IMG/VR virus record: IMGVR_UViG_3300006751_000167
Span: 1 to 21,914 of that record
Strand: one strand, 5' to 3'
DNA: 21,914 nucleotides
From: a virus
Below the pieces are notes generated by a model. It was given only the letters and a program-made list of their open reading frames with translations. It did not search any database and was not told where the DNA came from. A program made the translations under genes and the position numbers. The first letter of the stretch is position 1, and the number at the start of each line of letters is the position of its first letter. Of this stretch, positions 2,240 to 14,670 are shown piece after piece.

Positions 2240-2890
2240 TTACAGATTTGAAAGAAAATTGTTGAATAAATCCAACTTATGTTCTTCTAATCTCTTTTGA
2301 TCAACAAGAGTGTTAATTCTCTTCTGAGTCTTTTCTGCGAGTTGTTCACGAAGACTTCCGCCTTCCCAAATCCACTCTTTTCCTTCCATGATTCCATTCA
2401 CAAATGCTTCAGGAGCAGAAGGATCGGCAACGATATCAGCAGCAGTTGCTAACTGGAAATCTTCACCTACAATTTTATATCCCTCATTAGTTGTTCTTAA
2501 AGAACCAACTCCACGAGAAGATACCCCCAACTGAACACCTTCATCTAAAAGAGAAGATGCAATTTTACCCATTGGAGTACTTAATATTTGTGCTCTACCT
2601 GTAAAATTATTTCCTTCTTGTTGAAGACTAGTAATTCTATGAGAAACACGATCAAGGTTTACAGTTGGACCATCGGGATGTCCCAATTCTCCAAGAGCAC
2701 GGCCCCTTTGAATAAAGGATTCGTTATATCTACCAACTTCACGAGCAAGAGTTTCTACTGGATACATTCTACCATTACGATTTTGAATATTTCCCTGTAA
2801 GAAAACACCCTCAATATAAAGTTTTTTATTTGCACCTTTTCCTTCAGTGACAAATTTAACCTTAGCTACTTCTTCGGTAATTAGTTTCAT
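2240..2890 (-). CDS. 21: Prohead core maturation protease gp21
   Basis: This is the serine protease packaged in the T4-type prohead. It cleaves scaffold, core proteins and the gp23 N-terminus, making room for DNA. It has 216 residues, close to the usual size for the family. The likely catalytic His lies in GELGHPDGPTVN (H71) and the likely nucleophile in the GVSSRG block (S124/S125), both in the order and spacing typical of herpesvirus-fold prohead proteases. The early stretch QNRNGRMYP is also typical. The start at 2890 lies 4 nt after the stop of the preceding 89-aa gene, so the two are probably co-translated from the unit beginning at gp67. Which of the two serines is catalytic is inferred from family position only. 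Confidence 0.95.
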   Translation of the reverse strand: MKLITEEVAKVKFVTEGKGANKKLYIEGVFLQGNIQNRNGRMYPVETLAREVGRYNESFIQRGRALGELGHPDGPTVNLDRVSHRITSLQQEGNNFTGRAQILSTPMGKIASSLLDEGVQLGVSSRGVGSLRTTNEGYKIVGEDFQLATAADIVADPSAPEAFVNGIMEGKEWIWEGGSLREQLAEKTQKRINTLVDQKRLEEHKLDLFNNFLSNL

Positions 2891-2894
2891 TTTC

Positions 2895-3164
2895 TTAGTT
2901 CGTAAATCCTACGGCAGATGCCTTAACAGCATTATTAGCTGCCCATACTATATGACTTGATTTTTTTTCAATGACCACTGAAGATGATCTCATAACAGTA
3001 AGACTACCAATGGTTGTTCCACCAGCAGATACTTGAACTGTTACTAAATGATCTGCACCAGATGCAGTATTAACAAGACGAACTACTCTTGCTTGGGAAA
3101 TGCTTGTACCAGTACCAGTTGTTGTTGGTAATGCGGCCTCAGCTCCTTTAAGAAAAAGTCTCAT
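2895..3164 (-). CDS. Small beta-rich virion protein of unknown function (at the gp68 position)
   Basis: I do not recognise a named family in this 89-residue protein. It occupies the place of gp68 in T4, between gp67 and gp21. T4 gp68 is larger and is a prohead core component, and this product does not resemble such a protein. It is rich in Val, Ser, Thr and Ala, with alternating strand-like segments (ARVVRLVNTA, HLVTVQVSAGG, GSLTVMRSSSVVIEKK) and ends in KASAVGFTN. That looks like a compact beta-sandwich, as in head decoration or tail accessory proteins. A clear GGAG ribosome-binding site lies 11 nt before the ATG, and the gene begins 2 nt after the gp67 stop. The tight linkage suggests a head-assembly or decoration role, but this is inference. 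Confidence 0.75.
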   Translation of the reverse strand: MRLFLKGAEAALPTTTGTGTSISQARVVRLVNTASGADHLVTVQVSAGGTTIGSLTVMRSSSVVIEKKSSHIVWAANNAVKASAVGFTN

Positions 3165-7957: not shown

Positions 7958-8185
7958 TTACCAATCTGGATATGTCCAATCACTAAATGGTTTCTTTTTT
8001 CTTCTATCTACTATTCGTTTTATAGTGCAAATCTTACATTGATATGCATATGAAGATGGAACAGCTCCTCTATCTTTACGACTTAAATAAAATCCATCTA
8101 TCAAATCCTTTACTTCTCCACAAGTTCTACATTTTCTATCAGTAAATAATAAATGTTCTAATTCAACCTGATCATCTATATTCAT
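7958..8185 (-). CDS. Small CxxC/CxxC probable zinc-binding protein
   Basis: I do not recognise a named gene. The product has 75 residues from the ATG at 8185. It contains CRTC-type knuckles at C19/C22 and C50/C53 (KCRTCGEVKD and YQCKICTIKR), separated by 27 residues, then a basic stretch RIVDRRKKK and a Trp-containing tail. Such paired CxxC proteins are common in phages and resemble the zinc-binding part of endonuclease VII or HNH-type proteins, but no catalytic His/Asn residues are visible. I chose ATG 8185 because it forms a TAATG overlap with the gp17 stop; a GTG at 8200 would add five residues. T4 has no gene between 17 and 18. Likely a DNA- or protein-binding accessory; function unknown. 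Confidence 0.72.
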   Translation of the reverse strand: MNIDDQVELEHLLFTDRKCRTCGEVKDLIDGFYLSRKDRGAVPSSYAYQCKICTIKRIVDRRKKKPFSDWTYPDW

Positions 8186-9870
8186 TACATATAATCCCAC
8201 ATATATGATCTATCACCATACTCATCTACATTCCATTCAGTACTTTCTACTGGACTATTTTTACTCCACCTATCCCCATCATTATCAGTAAAACTATCCA
8301 TATCATCAAATCCATCTTGAATAAATCCAAATGGTGCCATATCTTGTTCTATCTGATTCCTTTGTTCTTCATATATTCTTTTACGAATATCATTATCTGA
8401 CATTTCTTTAAAATAGTCCTGTGCAACTAACCAGGCAAATATAACTAAGCACATTGCAAGATCATCATTACATCCTTCTTCTGCCTCAAATGAATTGTGC
8501 TTTTGTGCAAATGTTGTTAGTTCTGAAATAATTTCATAATCTACTGTAGTTATTTTATCATCTTCTAACATAGTTTTAAGATTAGAACAACCCAACTTCT
8601 TAACTGCTGCAGTCATTCTTACCCCAAGTTGAGTCTTCTTACCAGAAAATCCTTGCCCTACAACTTGACCATTACGTCCTCTCATAGATGCCATTAATAA
8701 ATTTTCATATTCAAGATCATACTGAAGAATACTTGCCACCTGATCTCCAATATCATTTACCTCTATTAACAAATATGCCTCATTATACCCCTTTGCAACA
8801 TCAAGAATAATATTGGGGAATAGCATAGGTTTAACTTCATTATTCCTATATTTTGCAACTACTCTATAAGGAAACTCTGTAGTATCGCAAACTATAAACG
8901 CAGAATAATCATTACCCAATCCTCTAGCAACGTCAACCGTAATTATATAATTATGTTCTGGTATTGGATCTTCGTAAATATCTAATCCAGCATTTCTAGT
9001 TTTAGGACTCTCATATACAAGATTCCTCAATTTACTAGGAGCAATTAATGTATTAACAGAACCTAGAAATTCACATTCAAACTCAATCTTAAATTGCTGT
9101 TCTGAAGTGTTGGCAATAGTCTGTCTCTTCCACTCAGCATCTCTACCTGGAACCTGTGACCAATGAACATCGGTTGGTACATATTCATTTCTACCTTTTT
9201 CACTATCATGCCAATACCTATAGAAATGATTCATCCCGTGAGGGGTTGAAACCATTATTACTTTCGTTGTCTTACCAGAAGTAATAGTAGGGTAAACAGA
9301 ACTAAAGAATGCTTCTGCGATATGATTTGGGACAAAAGCGAACTCGTCGAGGAAAAGGATATTGAACGACATGCCTCGGACAGCACTTGCAGACGTAGAA
9401 GCAGCCAGTATCTTTGATCCGTTTTCAAGTTCTAAACTCCCTTTGTTCCAGGATATTATACCCTGTTGCATCCATTTAGGTAAATTCTCATATGCAGTCT
9501 GTAATCTCCCTAATAAGTCTCTTGCAGTTGCTGCTTTGTTTGCCAGAATACCTATATTAACACTATCATTAAAAACACAATAATGTAAAAGATATGCAAC
9601 AGACGTAGTAGACTTACCAGTCTGTCTAGGCATTTTACATATATTAAATCTATTTTCGTGGAAATTATTAATTAACTTCTCTTGAAAATCATATGGTTTA
9701 AACTGAACAAGTCCCTCATCAAGAGAAACAATCTTCATATAATTGTTTGCAAAATATACAGGATCTTCTTTGCACTTTAAAAATTCACGGATATTATCTT
9801 CCGTAAATTCTATTGTAGTATTCGCTTTTTTTAAATTGGGATTGCCAAGATAAACATCATTATTATTCAT
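8185..9870 (-). CDS. 17: Terminase large subunit gp17 (packaging ATPase and nuclease)
   Basis: This is the motor that pumps DNA into the prohead and cuts the concatemer. It has 561 residues (T4 gp17 has 610). The ATPase half shows Walker A MPRQTGKST at 80-88, Walker B ILFLDE at 171-176 with the catalytic Glu at 176, and the coupling motif STPH at 208-211. The nuclease half shows the acidic residues of the RNase H-like fold: TVDVARG with D313, LLIEVND with E370, and CNDDLA with D469/D470. The last 60 residues are acidic with several Trp and Asp. An AGAGGA ribosome-binding site lies in the tail of the preceding gene, 6 nt away. No intron, intein or break is seen. Confidence 0.98.
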   Translation of the reverse strand: MNNNDVYLGNPNLKKANTTIEFTEDNIREFLKCKEDPVYFANNYMKIVSLDEGLVQFKPYDFQEKLINNFHENRFNICKMPRQTGKSTTSVAYLLHYCVFNDSVNIGILANKAATARDLLGRLQTAYENLPKWMQQGIISWNKGSLELENGSKILAASTSASAVRGMSFNILFLDEFAFVPNHIAEAFFSSVYPTITSGKTTKVIMVSTPHGMNHFYRYWHDSEKGRNEYVPTDVHWSQVPGRDAEWKRQTIANTSEQQFKIEFECEFLGSVNTLIAPSKLRNLVYESPKTRNAGLDIYEDPIPEHNYIITVDVARGLGNDYSAFIVCDTTEFPYRVVAKYRNNEVKPMLFPNIILDVAKGYNEAYLLIEVNDIGDQVASILQYDLEYENLLMASMRGRNGQVVGQGFSGKKTQLGVRMTAAVKKLGCSNLKTMLEDDKITTVDYEIISELTTFAQKHNSFEAEEGCNDDLAMCLVIFAWLVAQDYFKEMSDNDIRKRIYEEQRNQIEQDMAPFGFIQDGFDDMDSFTDNDGDRWSKNSPVESTEWNVDEYGDRSYMWDYM

Positions 9871-9876
9871 GAGAAA

Positions 9877-10443
9877 TTATCCTCTCAATACCTTATTAAT
9901 CCTCATATTTGTATCACTTCTCCAATTGGAAAGATGTTCTTTTATATCATGATGACTCTCTCCACATTTAATGCAAGGATCTTTCCCACAATCACAATCA
10001 CATTCTGTCTTCTTTTCAGAAATTTCTTGTGGCACATTTTGCTGAGATCCTCTCCATACACCTTTATTATCAATAACAGGTGAAATATGAGCAGGTCCAA
10101 TTACATCCACAATTTCCATAAATTTTGTACCATCAGAATGTTCTATAGACATTGATTCTTTAGTTATTGGCTTTTTATTTTCCACGGGTTTTTTAGTAGG
10201 TTTAGGTGGTTTAGGTTTATCTCTTTGTCCTAGAATACCAGCACTTGGTTTTGCTTTCTTAATTATAGTTTTAACTGTTTGTGGACTTTGCCTAGTGGGT
10301 TGCTTACTTTGTGCTGCCTTCTCAGCAGCTTCTCTCCTCTTTTCTTTTTGCTTGGCTGCATCAGAAGCAGCAGAAGACTTAAACTTCTTAACTGTATCTA
10401 CCTGTCTTTGACGAAGTTGTGCTCTTCTTTGCTGTATATCCAC
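9877..10443 (-). CDS. Unrecognised basic, disordered protein with Cys/His tail, between gp16 and gp17
   Basis: I do not recognise this 188-residue protein. Residues 1-50 are Arg/Lys/Gln/Ala-rich and probably helical (MDIQQRRAQLRQRQ, KQKEKRREAAEKAAQ). Residues 50-97 are Pro/Lys-rich and probably disordered (RDKPKPPKPTKKPVENKKP). Residues 98-135 look folded (GTKFMEIVDVIGPAHISPVI). A cysteine cluster CDCDCGKDPCIKC (C148, C150, C152, C157, C160) is followed by HH at 164-165 and H170, a plausible metal site. The start is a GTG, 5 nt after the gp16 stop, with no good ribosome-binding site; the next in-frame ATG is at residue 98. Lying between the two terminase genes, it is probably a DNA-packaging accessory or DNA-binding protein. 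That is inference from position and charge. Confidence 0.8.
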   Translation of the reverse strand: MDIQQRRAQLRQRQVDTVKKFKSSAASDAAKQKEKRREAAEKAAQSKQPTRQSPQTVKTIIKKAKPSAGILGQRDKPKPPKPTKKPVENKKPITKESMSIEHSDGTKFMEIVDVIGPAHISPVIDNKGVWRGSQQNVPQEISEKKTECDCDCGKDPCIKCGESHHDIKEHLSNWRSDTNMRINKVLRG

Positions 10444-10448
10444 AACAA

Positions 10449-10889
10449 TTATTCGGATTTACTATTATTATTTAGAAACCCATCTTTTAGCATCTTAGAA
10501 AGGTCAGTTGTTGATCCAACGAACATAGCATTATTAGTAACATTAGTAGGTTTATTTTTCGTCTCATCAATTTCTTTAACTTTCTTTTGAAGTTCCATCA
10601 ATTTATCAGTAGTATCTGCAACTGACTTAATAATTTGACCTGCAACTTCATATGCTCTTGGACTTGCACTTTCACCCGCAAGTTCCATAATACCATTAAG
10701 AGACTCTTGGCCCTTCTCTATTAATGAATATAAATTTGCACGAGTATAATCATAATCTTTATCTATATCACCAGTAACATTATTAAGTTGATCTTTTCTC
10801 TTAGTACAACCACCTTCTGGTGTAGTACTAACTTCAATAGAAGTACTACTAGTATTTAATGCTTTATCAATAGGATCATAATTATTCAT
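10449..10889 (-). CDS. 16: Terminase small subunit gp16
   Basis: This is the ring-forming regulator that recognises DNA for packaging and stimulates the gp17 ATPase. It has 146 residues (T4 gp16 has 164). The central part aligns by eye with T4 gp16. It has a DYDYTRANL block near 45-53 (T4: DYGVVRRNM), then SASPRAYEVAGQIIKSVADT near 74-93 (T4 has SPRHMEVFATLMGQMTTT), and NAMFVGSTTDL near 120-130 (T4 has NATVFMGSPTEL). The N-terminal 40 residues are Ser/Thr-rich and unlike T4. It starts 5 nt after the gp15 stop, with no strong ribosome-binding site, suggesting coupling. All 14 Asn codons are AAT, showing the AT-rich codon choice of this part of the window. Confidence 0.88.
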   Translation of the reverse strand: MNNYDPIDKALNTSSTSIEVSTTPEGGCTKRKDQLNNVTGDIDKDYDYTRANLYSLIEKGQESLNGIMELAGESASPRAYEVAGQIIKSVADTTDKLMELQKKVKEIDETKNKPTNVTNNAMFVGSTTDLSKMLKDGFLNNNSKSE

Positions 10890-10894
10890 AATTT

Positions 10895-11941
10895 TTAAAT
10901 ATCAGTTTGTCTTGTTGGACTATAAGATGATGAATCTGCAAAATACGATGAAGTCTCGTTAAATCCAAAACTATCATCTGGATCTACTAATACATCATCG
11001 GCAGCAGTTAATTTATTAACAGTAGAACCAGTTCCATGAATCACTGCAACAGTATTATCTATAGCTCTATCAACACCTACTGTTGTTGCATCTACTATTT
11101 GATTAACTCTCATAATCTCATCTTCAATAATAACCCTATCTTTAATAGCAAATACTCCACTATTAGCAACAACAAACGAAGATTGACTTGTGCCAAGTTC
11201 TGCTGTTAAAGTAGAAGTTCCATCAGAATCATAATCCTTACGTGCTTGTGGTGTTGCAGCATAACGTAATTCACGTCTTGACTGACCTTTATCAAGTTGT
11301 ATAGCATAATCAACTTGAACTTTCTTGATAAGACCCTCTGGACTCTCAGCAACAGGACCGAATAGATAAGTCTTAGCAGTAAAATTAAGTGTATAAATTA
11401 AAGCACGTCTTGTAGTATAATCTCCTTCATAATCATCCTCAAAAGATATACTATCTAATACAACACTAATATCTCTCTTCTCTCCAATAGAACTAACCAA
11501 ATCTACAGTTAGATTAAATGATGGTTGAAAATATGGAAGTATCTGTTCTACAATCTGTAATGCATCATCATTCAATTTAGTCATTATATTTAATTCAAAT
11601 CCCACATTATAAGGAACTGGCATAAAGACCTTTCTTAAATTAGTTCCATCAGATGCTTTATATGTTTGAGTTATACCTGCTTTCCTTGTAGGATCATATG
11701 TAACATTATTCATTTCAAATGACATTCTAGGCAACGACATTGTTGTTGCTTTGTTTAAATTAGATTGCTGATCTAATCTTGCTAAAAACTTTTGAACAGG
11801 TCCATAAGCAAGAGCAATCTTCATATCACTTACACCACTTCCAGAACTATCCTTATGGCGAACATGTATGTCGTTAAACAGTGTACCAAAAGAAATAACC
11901 GTCTTTCTTAAAATTTCGTGATAATAGTATGTGCCTAGCAT
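10895..11941 (-). CDS. 15: Tail sheath stabiliser and completion protein gp15, with C-terminal insertion
   Basis: This is the protein that caps the finished tail and forms the interface to the neck. It has 348 residues (T4 gp15 has 272). The block DDALQIVEQILPYFQPSFNL near 125-144 is nearly identical to T4 (DDMFQIVEQILPYFQPHFN). EKRDISVVLDSISFEDDYEG near 154-173 and AESPEGLIKKVQVDY near 198-212 also match. The extra length is a beta-rich module at about 241-312 (FAIKDRVIIEDEIMRVNQI, then DRAIDNT and IHGTGSTV) which resembles a stretch of the large protein at the right end of the window. Start ATG 11941 overlaps the gp14 stop as TAATG, so translation is likely coupled. Confidence 0.93.
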   Translation of the reverse strand: MLGTYYYHEILRKTVISFGTLFNDIHVRHKDSSGSGVSDMKIALAYGPVQKFLARLDQQSNLNKATTMSLPRMSFEMNNVTYDPTRKAGITQTYKASDGTNLRKVFMPVPYNVGFELNIMTKLNDDALQIVEQILPYFQPSFNLTVDLVSSIGEKRDISVVLDSISFEDDYEGDYTTRRALIYTLNFTAKTYLFGPVAESPEGLIKKVQVDYAIQLDKGQSRRELRYAATPQARKDYDSDGTSTLTAELGTSQSSFVVANSGVFAIKDRVIIEDEIMRVNQIVDATTVGVDRAIDNTVAVIHGTGSTVNKLTAADDVLVDPDDSFGFNETSSYFADSSSYSPTRQTDI

Positions 11942-13581
11942 TAGTAAGTACCAAAGGGATTAGTTTCTTTAAAATCAATAATCGAATCTGCCTCAGTTTC
12001 AAATATATCACCCTCATTATAGGGGTCATATGTATCAGTGTCATTATATATTTGTAGAGCATATTCAACATTTGAAGTAGCTCCATATGCTATAGAGGTT
12101 CCAGATACAGCAGAAGTGTTGAGAGAATCCTCACTCATAATAACTTGACTTGCGCCAATAGATAGAATTGTAACTCCTATTCCAATAACATTGTTTACAG
12201 GATTTAATTCTTGTCCAATTGCAAGTCCAGTAGTAGTAATTCCAGTAATCTTATTAGTTGTAATACCAATACTTCCTGTTGTAGTTTTAGAAGCAGTAAA
12301 ATAAGTAGAATCTAAAGATCTAATTAATTCACCATTAGTAAACATCAGAGCAGTTCCACCTACAGCAACCTGAGAAACTTTAAGAATTCTAGTGTCTCTA
12401 TCCCAAGCCTTAACTCTTGCTTCTAATCCAGAAGTCATTCCTCTAACAATATCATTAAGTGCATAATCACCGTTAGCAATAACATTTGGAGGAGTAATAG
12501 TTACTGTTGGTGCTACAGTATATCCTGCACCTGTATTTGTAATATAGAATCCAGTAAGAGCACCAGATGTTGGATGAACTGTTGCTCTAGCAGTTGCATT
12601 TATACCACCCACAGGTGCAGTCGATATTCCGACAGTAGGTGCAGTCCAATATCCAGCTCCAATTTCTGTAATATTAAATCCTAATACACCTTTAGCAGTT
12701 TGTTCAATAGAACAAGTCGCAGCAGCTCCTGCACCCGATCCACTTACAAATGATATTGTTGGTGGAGTTGTATATCCAGAACCAGGATTAGTAATTAAAA
12801 CTTCTTTTAGAGAATATAATCCAGTTCTTGTTGTTGTAATAGCAACAGCAGTAGCATTCACACCACCTGCAGGAGCAGCTGTAATGTAAACAGTAGGTGT
12901 TGAAGTATATCCATGCCCATCATTATTAAGATATAAATTGGAAATATATCCAGATGGAGTAGTGAGGTTACTAGTTGCAGTTGCTGTGACACCTGCTCCA
13001 GAAAGATTGAGTGTAGTAATAACTCCAGTCTCATCAATGACAGAATCTATTACTTCAATCGAAGTATCAATAATCTCATCCTCATATTCGAAGAGTTCAC
13101 ATTTCAATTGATAAACGTAATTCTTTCCTAACTGATAAAATGGATCTTCATGCTCAACAAACTTTACTTCAAATAACCTACTTCCTAATGGAAAGAATAT
13201 TAAATCACCTTCTCTTGGTCTAAGAGCCTGAGTTGGATCTATTTCATCATCAGGAAAAGCATCTAAAAAAGGAACAATAAAATCTTCAAACCTTTCTCTT
13301 GATACTGTTAATGTTACTTCATCTCGTAAACTCATTCCAAATTTAGTAAGTACATCACCTTGTCCACCATATCCCTCATATGTGTTTACATATGCTTCAA
13401 TTAGAAAATTATCATCAAATTTAGAAGCTGACACTTCTTCCATAATGGTGCTTTTATTCACCATTTTTCTAGGAATATAAGTTACTTCAACTCCATAGAT
13501 TTGAAGTTGTTCATTTATAAGATCTTGAACAAGCCTTTGCTCACCCTGAGTTCCCTGTAGAAAAAATGGATTTAGTGCCAT
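11941..13581 (-). CDS. 14: Neck protein gp14 with large repeat-containing insertion
   Basis: This is a head-completion protein that with gp13 closes the portal and receives the tail. It has 546 residues, about twice T4 gp14 (256). Residues 1-180 match T4: QIYGVEVTYIPRKMV, TYEGYGGQGDVLTKFGMSLR, REGDLIFFPLGSRLFEVKFV and EHEDPFYQLGKNYVYQLKCE. The last residues FKETNPFGTY match the T4 end SNPFDNDFMD. In between, residues 187-500 are inserted: four Gly-rich beta repeats, then an RGMTSGLEARV module, then a third beta module. The ends being T4-like and the centre foreign to T4 argues for domain insertion in a surface loop. It begins 5 nt after the gp13 stop. Confidence 0.93.
   Translation of the reverse strand: MALNPFFLQGTQGEQRLVQDLINEQLQIYGVEVTYIPRKMVNKSTIMEEVSASKFDDNFLIEAYVNTYEGYGGQGDVLTKFGMSLRDEVTLTVSRERFEDFIVPFLDAFPDDEIDPTQALRPREGDLIFFPLGSRLFEVKFVEHEDPFYQLGKNYVYQLKCELFEYEDEIIDTSIEVIDSVIDETGVITTLNLSGAGVTATATSNLTTPSGYISNLYLNNDGHGYTSTPTVYITAAPAGGVNATAVAITTTRTGLYSLKEVLITNPGSGYTTPPTISFVSGSGAGAAATCSIEQTAKGVLGFNITEIGAGYWTAPTVGISTAPVGGINATARATVHPTSGALTGFYITNTGAGYTVAPTVTITPPNVIANGDYALNDIVRGMTSGLEARVKAWDRDTRILKVSQVAVGGTALMFTNGELIRSLDSTYFTASKTTTGSIGITTNKITGITTTGLAIGQELNPVNNVIGIGVTILSIGASQVIMSEDSLNTSAVSGTSIAYGATSNVEYALQIYNDTDTYDPYNEGDIFETEADSIIDFKETNPFGTY
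12484..13023 (-). repeat. Four degenerate Gly-rich protein repeats inside gp14
   Basis: The region encodes four units around a G(S/A/H)GY(T/W)xxPT core, with the GY at residues 224-225, 269-270, 310-311 and 353-354, so spacing is 41-45 residues. Between cores are stretches such as APAGGVNATA and APVGGINATA. The pattern suggests a small beta-fold repeated in tandem. The repeats are clear in protein and weak in DNA. Confidence 0.8.
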
Positions 13582-14445: not shown

Positions 14446-14670
14446 TTATTCTTTATCTATCTTGGATTTGGATTTCGATTGCAAAAGTTCGTATTTGTTT
14501 TGCAACTCCATCGTATTTGCAAGGAGCATTTCCTTTTCTTCTTCATGATCTTGAAGTAAGGTTTGAACCTTTGCCTCTAATAGAACATTTTGATTTTGTA
14601 ATGATGCTAATCTCTGATTATAAATTTTAACCAAAACATTAACATCAACATCACTTTGAGGACTAGTCAT
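14446..14670 (-). CDS. Small coiled-coil protein before gp13
   Basis: I do not recognise a family. The 74-residue product is almost entirely a predicted helix with Leu/Val/Ile spaced in heptads from about residue 12 to 65 (VLVKIYNQRLASLQNQNVLL, LQDHEEEKEMLLANTMELQN) and a charged Lys/Ser tail. No Cys and no membrane segment are present. In T4 the gene just before 13 is wac, the coiled-coil whisker protein fibritin, but this product is far shorter and lacks a visible foldon. It starts 8 nt after the stop of the fibre-like gene and ends 1 nt before gp13, so it belongs to the same unit. It may be a neck or whisker component or an assembly helper. Confidence 0.78.
   Translation of the reverse strand: MTSPQSDVDVNVLVKIYNQRLASLQNQNVLLEAKVQTLLQDHEEEKEMLLANTMELQNKYELLQSKSKSKIDKE

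Follow-up and report, generated by a model that had tools for sequence, protein, structure and literature searches.

The interval between gp16 and gp17, the genes of the small (TerS) and large (TerL) terminase subunits, or more widely g15–g18, is described as hypervariable in T4-like cyanophages in the relevant passages of PMC3037559, PMC4928673 and PMC2984593, all citing Millard et al. 2009. The same passages of PMC2984593 and PMC3037559 assign to it host-derived genes and unknown adaptive genes, and since 2009 this interval (hereafter the slot) has been seen mainly as a store of metabolic genes and unknowns. Plastocyanin, gnd, zwf, NblA and fibre-like genes occupy it in other phages. Its named hyperplastic genes include T4-GC 121–123 of P-SSM2 and T4-GC 403/119 of S-SM1; PSSM2_123, located between gp15 and gp16 of P-SSM2, falls into the T4-GC 119 cluster, which is common to the S-SM1 slot protein. 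The other system relevant here, compared by properties, is the set of T4 internal proteins IPI, IPII and IPIII, which are small, basic, dispensable and poorly conserved (PMC9026906, PMC9958956) and are exchanged (PMC9026906).

The window analysed here is a viral record of 21,914 nucleotides (21.9 kb) from a marine T4-like myovirus, with gp13–gp22-type genes on the minus strand. Its TerL has the Prochlorococcus phages P-SSM2/P-SSM5 as closest cultured relatives (84% identical), and the closest record for its TerS is Marine virus AG-345-L05 (Kyanoviridae; 80% identical). The ORF under study (9877..10443, minus strand, read from 10443 to 9877; 188 aa) thus lies between TerS and TerL of a Kyanoviridae-type T4-like phage. 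Its GTG start is separated by 5 nt from the end of gp16 at 10449 (10449..10889, minus; phrog_445, E=1.5e-51; PF11053), and 6 nt separate its end from the start of gp17 at 9870 (8185..9870, minus; phrog_2, E=2.6e-76; PF03237/PF17289). The closest homologues have the same GTG start ~5 nt past gp16. Elsewhere in the window, an 80-aa endonuclease VII-like ORF (7958-8200, minus; phrog_4723, E=7e-38) overlaps the gp17 3' end, as likewise in several cyanophages; endonuclease genes at this place are mostly degraded homing endonucleases according to the corresponding part of PMC3037559. The gp14-like head closure protein (11941-13581, minus; 546 aa) contains one stretch matching phrog_701 and phrog_5342 (virion structural, tail-fibre PHROGs), and the 74-aa ORF upstream of gp13 (14446-14670, minus) is without significant Pfam or PHROG match.

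The ORF is not a chance reading frame, because contig L003 encodes a colinear homologue (80% identity) with dN/dS of 0.18 and because family members are present on 69 IMG/VR contigs. It is under purifying selection: the dN/dS against L003 falls to 0.12 in the conserved core described below, while gp16, gp15 and gp17 give 0.21, 0.18 and 0.04, respectively. The protein is basic (pI 9.8, net charge ~+15), with pI 11.0 over residues 1-95 and a Pro/Lys-rich stretch at residues ~60-95. Its cysteines are at positions 148, 150, 152, 157 and 160 and its histidines at 164, 165 and 170.

The architecture was derived from an alignment of 23 complete family members. The basic N-terminal segment (residues 1-24; 10372..10443, minus) follows the pattern MDxxQRRxQLRxRQxxxVKKF, with invariant positions in the family alignment, and belongs to a predicted helix (3-46) that is found in most members and absent from L120/L126/L128. 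The core (residues 96-135; 10039..10158, minus) defines the family by ESxxIExSDGxxFxxxxDxxGPxxxxPxxxxxGxWxGxxQ. It is followed by the tripeptide I-S-E (residues 141-143; 10015..10023, minus), the optional Cys/His cassette CDCDCGKDPCIKCGESHH (residues 148-165; 9949..10002, minus) and a C-terminal NWRxDxNMRINK motif (residues 173-184; 9892..9927, minus), of which W-R-x-D-x-x-MRINK is common to 20 of the 23 members. The invariant columns are E96, S97, D113, G116, P117, G128, W130, G132, Q135, I141, E143 and W174, with no Cys or His among them. Optional pieces occupy two places, the stretch that separates I-x-E from the W-R motif (the cassette, a KQKKADQIKKQVLLKK segment) and the end behind this motif (DUF6321 and others). 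The smallest members are reduced to the core plus the terminal W-R motif, some keeping the N-terminal helix and some lacking it (L116, 112 aa; L126, 110 aa). Iteration of the core HMM converged at 119 domains, among them free-standing ORFs of 50-55 aa (core plus W-R motif; E ~1e-9 to 1e-12) near or overlapping the gp16 end. Since the same pieces also occur alone, the protein is best read, judging from its sequence, as a string of short units. A DUF192 (COG1430) N-terminus fused before the core was also observed; it is Pfam-confirmed in L031:644-1999 (PF02643, E=1.4e-27) and was recognised by eye in L032:5452-6582, L040:2418-3758, L041:8445-9458 and L068:3469-4821.

Structure prediction agrees with largely disordered chains. 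AlphaFold2 gives the helix at 3-46 (pLDDT ~77-86 over residues 1-40) and low confidence elsewhere; the models obtained with 9 and 23 sequences (pLDDT 57 and 60, pTM 0.20 and 0.23) are too poor for a fold search. Profile searches in Pfam, PHROGs, NCBIfam and PDB returned nothing significant for the protein, and no paper describing the core-defined family was found in the main texts of the open-licence literature. The slot is already known and the family is unnamed. The ORF shares with the hyperplastic genes the interval, the orientation and the variability of length and content, but its core-defined family was not found named among them in the passages cited above. Much of the initial annotation of this locus, made from the sequence alone, holds: a 188-residue ORF with GTG start and 5- and 6-nt gaps, the strongly basic N-terminus, the Pro/Lys stretch and the lack of a recognisable family. 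The “short folded-looking part” it described has a counterpart in the conserved core, although AlphaFold places there only low-confidence strands (pLDDT ~50-67).

The related string proteins are of DUF6321 (PF19846)/phrog_727/phrog_3477 type. In L001, L055, L064 and L031 the core and a DUF6321 tail form one polypeptide at the same position. The window ORF differs in having no DUF6321, phrog_727 or phrog_3477 match, whereas homologues sharing its N-terminus and core do have DUF6321. The same tail ends S-CREM2 gp137 (E=3.5e-10) and S-SCSM1_29 (E=3e-22), and P-SSM7 and Sf-FS3 also encode DUF6321/string-type proteins, there in the vicinity of a cytidylyltransferase gene. The P-SSM2-type proteins with a 'VDIIKPEPL' segment are not counted here as homologues, the core HMM match being not significant. 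The motif WR-[DE]-[DE]-[FL] was also considered as a genome-wide mark of head cargo; it is rare (3 sites in P-SSM2, all in the gp15-gp17 region, 0-2 in seven other phages, and a version of it in only one S-CREM2 virion protein) and allows no conclusion.

The variability of the slot was surveyed in the 67 IMG/VR contigs with the closest TerS (77-87% identical) and both interval ends present. The gp16-gp17 gap ranges there from 3 to 1,564 nt (it reaches ~7.2 kb in cultured S-B43), and its contents differ between close relatives. The core is present in 42 of the 67; 16 have no insert, with a gp16-gp17 spacing of 3-8 nt, and the gp17 starts of some of them are up to ~93% identical at the DNA level to those of insert carriers. 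The cassette is found in 11 (6 with and 5 without the core) and another small Cys-containing ORF in 4. Placing six slot states on the TerS tree requires at least 12 changes, and L080, which lacks the cassette, nests inside a supported clade of cassette carriers. The slot content is thus dispensable and exchanged among close relatives. Among 67 family loci examined (of 69), gp16 and/or gp17 flank the gene in 66, which supports the earlier description of a gene between the two terminase subunits; it is co-directional with them and locked in this place. The ORF is therefore tied to the terminase by position but not by need, because close relatives with the same terminase manage without it. The separation of genes 16 and 17, which the initial annotation contrasted with their adjacency in T4, is not special to this phage, the interval being already known as hypervariable from the passages cited above.

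The Cys/His cluster is likewise an optional cassette. It occurs in 12 of the 69 family loci and is absent from L080, L110-L116, L119-L132 and others. All copies listed conform to C.C.{0,4}CG..PC..CG..HH, the pattern that itself served for finding them; a degenerate copy (NCGCGQDPCITYG) is present in L068 and PSSM7_193, and a search with the cassette alone returned 4 phage records. In S-SCSM2R (Synechococcus WH7803) the cassette is part of a 724-aa slot protein. A 23-aa candidate micro-ORF consisting of nearly nothing but the cassette (MTCDCDCKGCGQNPCVKCGKNHH and variants) was also observed between gp16 and gp17 in five contigs forming one clade on the TerS tree (L046:4389-4460, L065:3603-3674, L066:8441-8512, L071:3681-3752 and L051:4045-4116). 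The protein resembles zinc knuckles and metallothionein-like proteins in having five Cys and two or three His within 23 residues, but it has no Pfam zinc-binding match and its potential ligands are not conserved family-wide. The cluster followed by three His was pointed out previously as a characteristic of the protein; it is indeed there, but the third His (170) is not kept even in L003, and as a family feature the cluster fails, since most members do without it and no Cys or His position is conserved.

The tripeptide between core and cassette is constrained. [IV]xE directly follows the core in 50 of 51 unique members through nine different tripeptides, although the pattern is very short and shared ancestry of the sequences inflates such counts. 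The entropy over the four positions (0.95 for I/V, 2.03, 0.28 for E, 2.07) shows constraint at P3 and P1 but not at P2 or P1'. This constraint resembles in shape the cleavage site of T4 gp21, to whose logo LIE conforms (review, PMC9026906), and I141-S-E143 is accordingly a candidate site of the hydrophobic-x-Glu form. LxE recurs in the N-terminal propeptide regions of gp23 of S-CREM2 and S-SM1 (LTEK/LQEK, LLEN, LTEA/LTET). The related string proteins contain 42 [VILM]xEG sites, often just ahead of a module, where shuffles give 12.3 +/- 3.4 and other spacings 5-17, the counts not being independent events, as these proteins share ancestry; control S-CREM2 ORFs show no excess (36 vs 40.8).

Products of the slot have been reported in virions. 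S-CREM2 gp136 and gp137, whose genes lie exactly between TerS and TerL, were detected in purified virions with 8 and 4 unique peptides (PMC10665884 Table 3), and S-SZBM1_195 and _190 are in the virion list of that phage, _195 with an emPAI of 2.66, near that of the portal, 2.83 (PMC9146016 Table 1). These lists cover other products of the interval than the core-defined family itself, and the core HMM has no significant match in the virion-reported interval proteins. TerS and TerL are missing from both lists (PMC10665884, PMC9146016). In S-SCSM1, two genes lying immediately upstream of TerL, _29 and _31, bear the name 'virion protein' in the deposited record, which seems to be given after detection by mass spectrometry. 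The S-CREM2 authors cautioned that highly expressed phage proteins may not have been separated from virions by CsCl (PMC10665884), and some large slot proteins seem, by eye, closer to fibres or decorations than to internal proteins.

Taking these data together, we put at roughly 45% the probability that the ORF product works in the manner of the internal (prohead core) proteins of T4, being located inside the head and cleaved by the prohead protease gp21. This reading leads because of the interval products in virion lists, the [IV]xE constraint and the [VILM]xEG excess. Further points in its favour are the DUF6321 tail that core-bearing family members have in common with S-CREM2 gp137 and S-SCSM1_29, the dispensability and exchange of slot contents, known also for T4 internal proteins, and the presence of both gp21 and gp22 in the window. 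The product is probably made late, along with gp15, gp16 and gp17, and would be taken into the prohead during assembly; its basic N-terminal helix and its core may there contact scaffold or DNA. The protease, gp21 (2240..2890, minus; phrog_207 head maturation protease, E=5e-80), would then cleave after the conserved [IV]xE, at E143. The fragments would stay in the head with the DNA, the C-terminal one bearing the optional cassette, a putative metal binder, and they may be injected. The ORF product is like the T4 internal proteins in being small, basic, dispensable and poorly conserved and in carrying a candidate hydrophobic-x-Glu site of gp21 type; unlike theirs, its gene lies between the terminase genes and its N-terminus is not capsid-targeting.

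The N-terminus MDIQQRRAQLRQ does not fit the T4-type capsid-targeting pattern (hydrophobics at 4, 7 and 8; E at 10), and a targeting sequence was rejected for the window ORF on this ground; such a sequence is present in 7 of 44 further proteins from the slot region. In contrast to the window ORF, S-CREM2 gp136 and several virion-associated enzymes have N-termini of this type. In S-CREM2 (L169-L172), gp6, gp13, gp14, gp136 and gp154 begin with MKxFxxFLxE-like sequences resembling the T4 one; their bearers are virion-reported and mostly non-structural (SAM hydrolase, kinase, cytidylyltransferase), and such starts occur in 5 of 52 S-CREM2 virion proteins vs 2 of 167 others (Fisher p=0.009, the pattern being partly set post hoc). 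As a separate observation, the window encodes next to gp21 an 89-aa protein (2895-3164, minus; phrog_19805, E=1.4e-21), which resembles, by eye, PSSM2_127 and the gap-filling ORFs of 82-89 aa in L012, L026 and L042, so that this gene also seems to move between slots. The virion-abundant S-SZBM1_195 is a slot protein of similar size.

Other explanations account for part of these data. The ORF could be a cargo gene for host takeover or metal handling that acts in the infected cell and not in the virion, the cassette being, for example, a metallothionein-like binder. The host-derived and adaptive genes assigned to the region in the cited parts of PMC2984593 and PMC3037559 agree with this, as do the conservation of the cassette as a separate 23-aa ORF in five contigs and the vicinity of related string proteins to PTOX and dehydrogenase genes in Sf-FS3. 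However, the conserved element is the core and not the Cys cassette, virion lists of cultured phages contain several interval products, and there would be no obvious role for the [IV]xE constraint in such a protein. We regard an intracellular function as possible, if rather unlikely. A packaging accessory, in line with the DNA-binding or motor-bridging factor of the initial annotation, would bind DNA and bridge TerS and TerL or the portal during packaging, and its C-terminus would be stabilised by zinc. The locked position, the short gaps suggesting co-translation and the very basic N-terminal half speak in favour of such a protein. But position alone is weak evidence, since in other phages the interval contains genes such as plastocyanin or gnd, and the family conserves no Cys or His. 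The gene is not kept in all relatives with the same terminase (16 of 67 are without it), which makes motor bridging less likely, and the interval products were found in virions of two cyanophages in which TerS and TerL were not. We regard a packaging role as improbable, and motor bridging as unlikely to be a general function.

It could also be supposed that the ORF is a fast-evolving filler with little or no protein function, kept by gp16-gp17 translational coupling. Its length does vary widely in the family, the low confidence of prediction over most of the chain fits disorder, and relatives without the ORF survive. The selection data (dN/dS overall and in the core) disfavour this, and specific residues are invariant across 23 diverse sequences; we find it very improbable.

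The ORF belongs, as a short member, to a modular family of basic and mostly disordered proteins that occupies the slot in marine T4-like (Kyanoviridae-type) phages. A wider form of the head-internal reading, which we consider unlikely as a whole and offer as a speculation, is that the terminase interval is a cassette locus for head-internal beads-on-a-string precursors. Short Cys-containing modules joined by hydrophobic-x-Glu(-Gly) linkers would enter the prohead, be cut by gp21 into many small peptides or mini-domains and be delivered with the DNA; the window ORF would be among the simplest of these precursors and the 23-aa ORF the same bead alone.

Our results suggest an interval that, in one marine lineage, is built round one conserved motif protein whose modules can be exchanged, and they suggest prohead-protease sites in many related products. 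If the virion link fails, a well-defined unnamed family in a known variable region remains. If it is true, cyanophages would have in this locus an equivalent of the T4 internal-protein genes, and a function that can be tested, as head cargo for injection, could be assigned to the unexplained small Cys-containing modules (DUF6321 and others).
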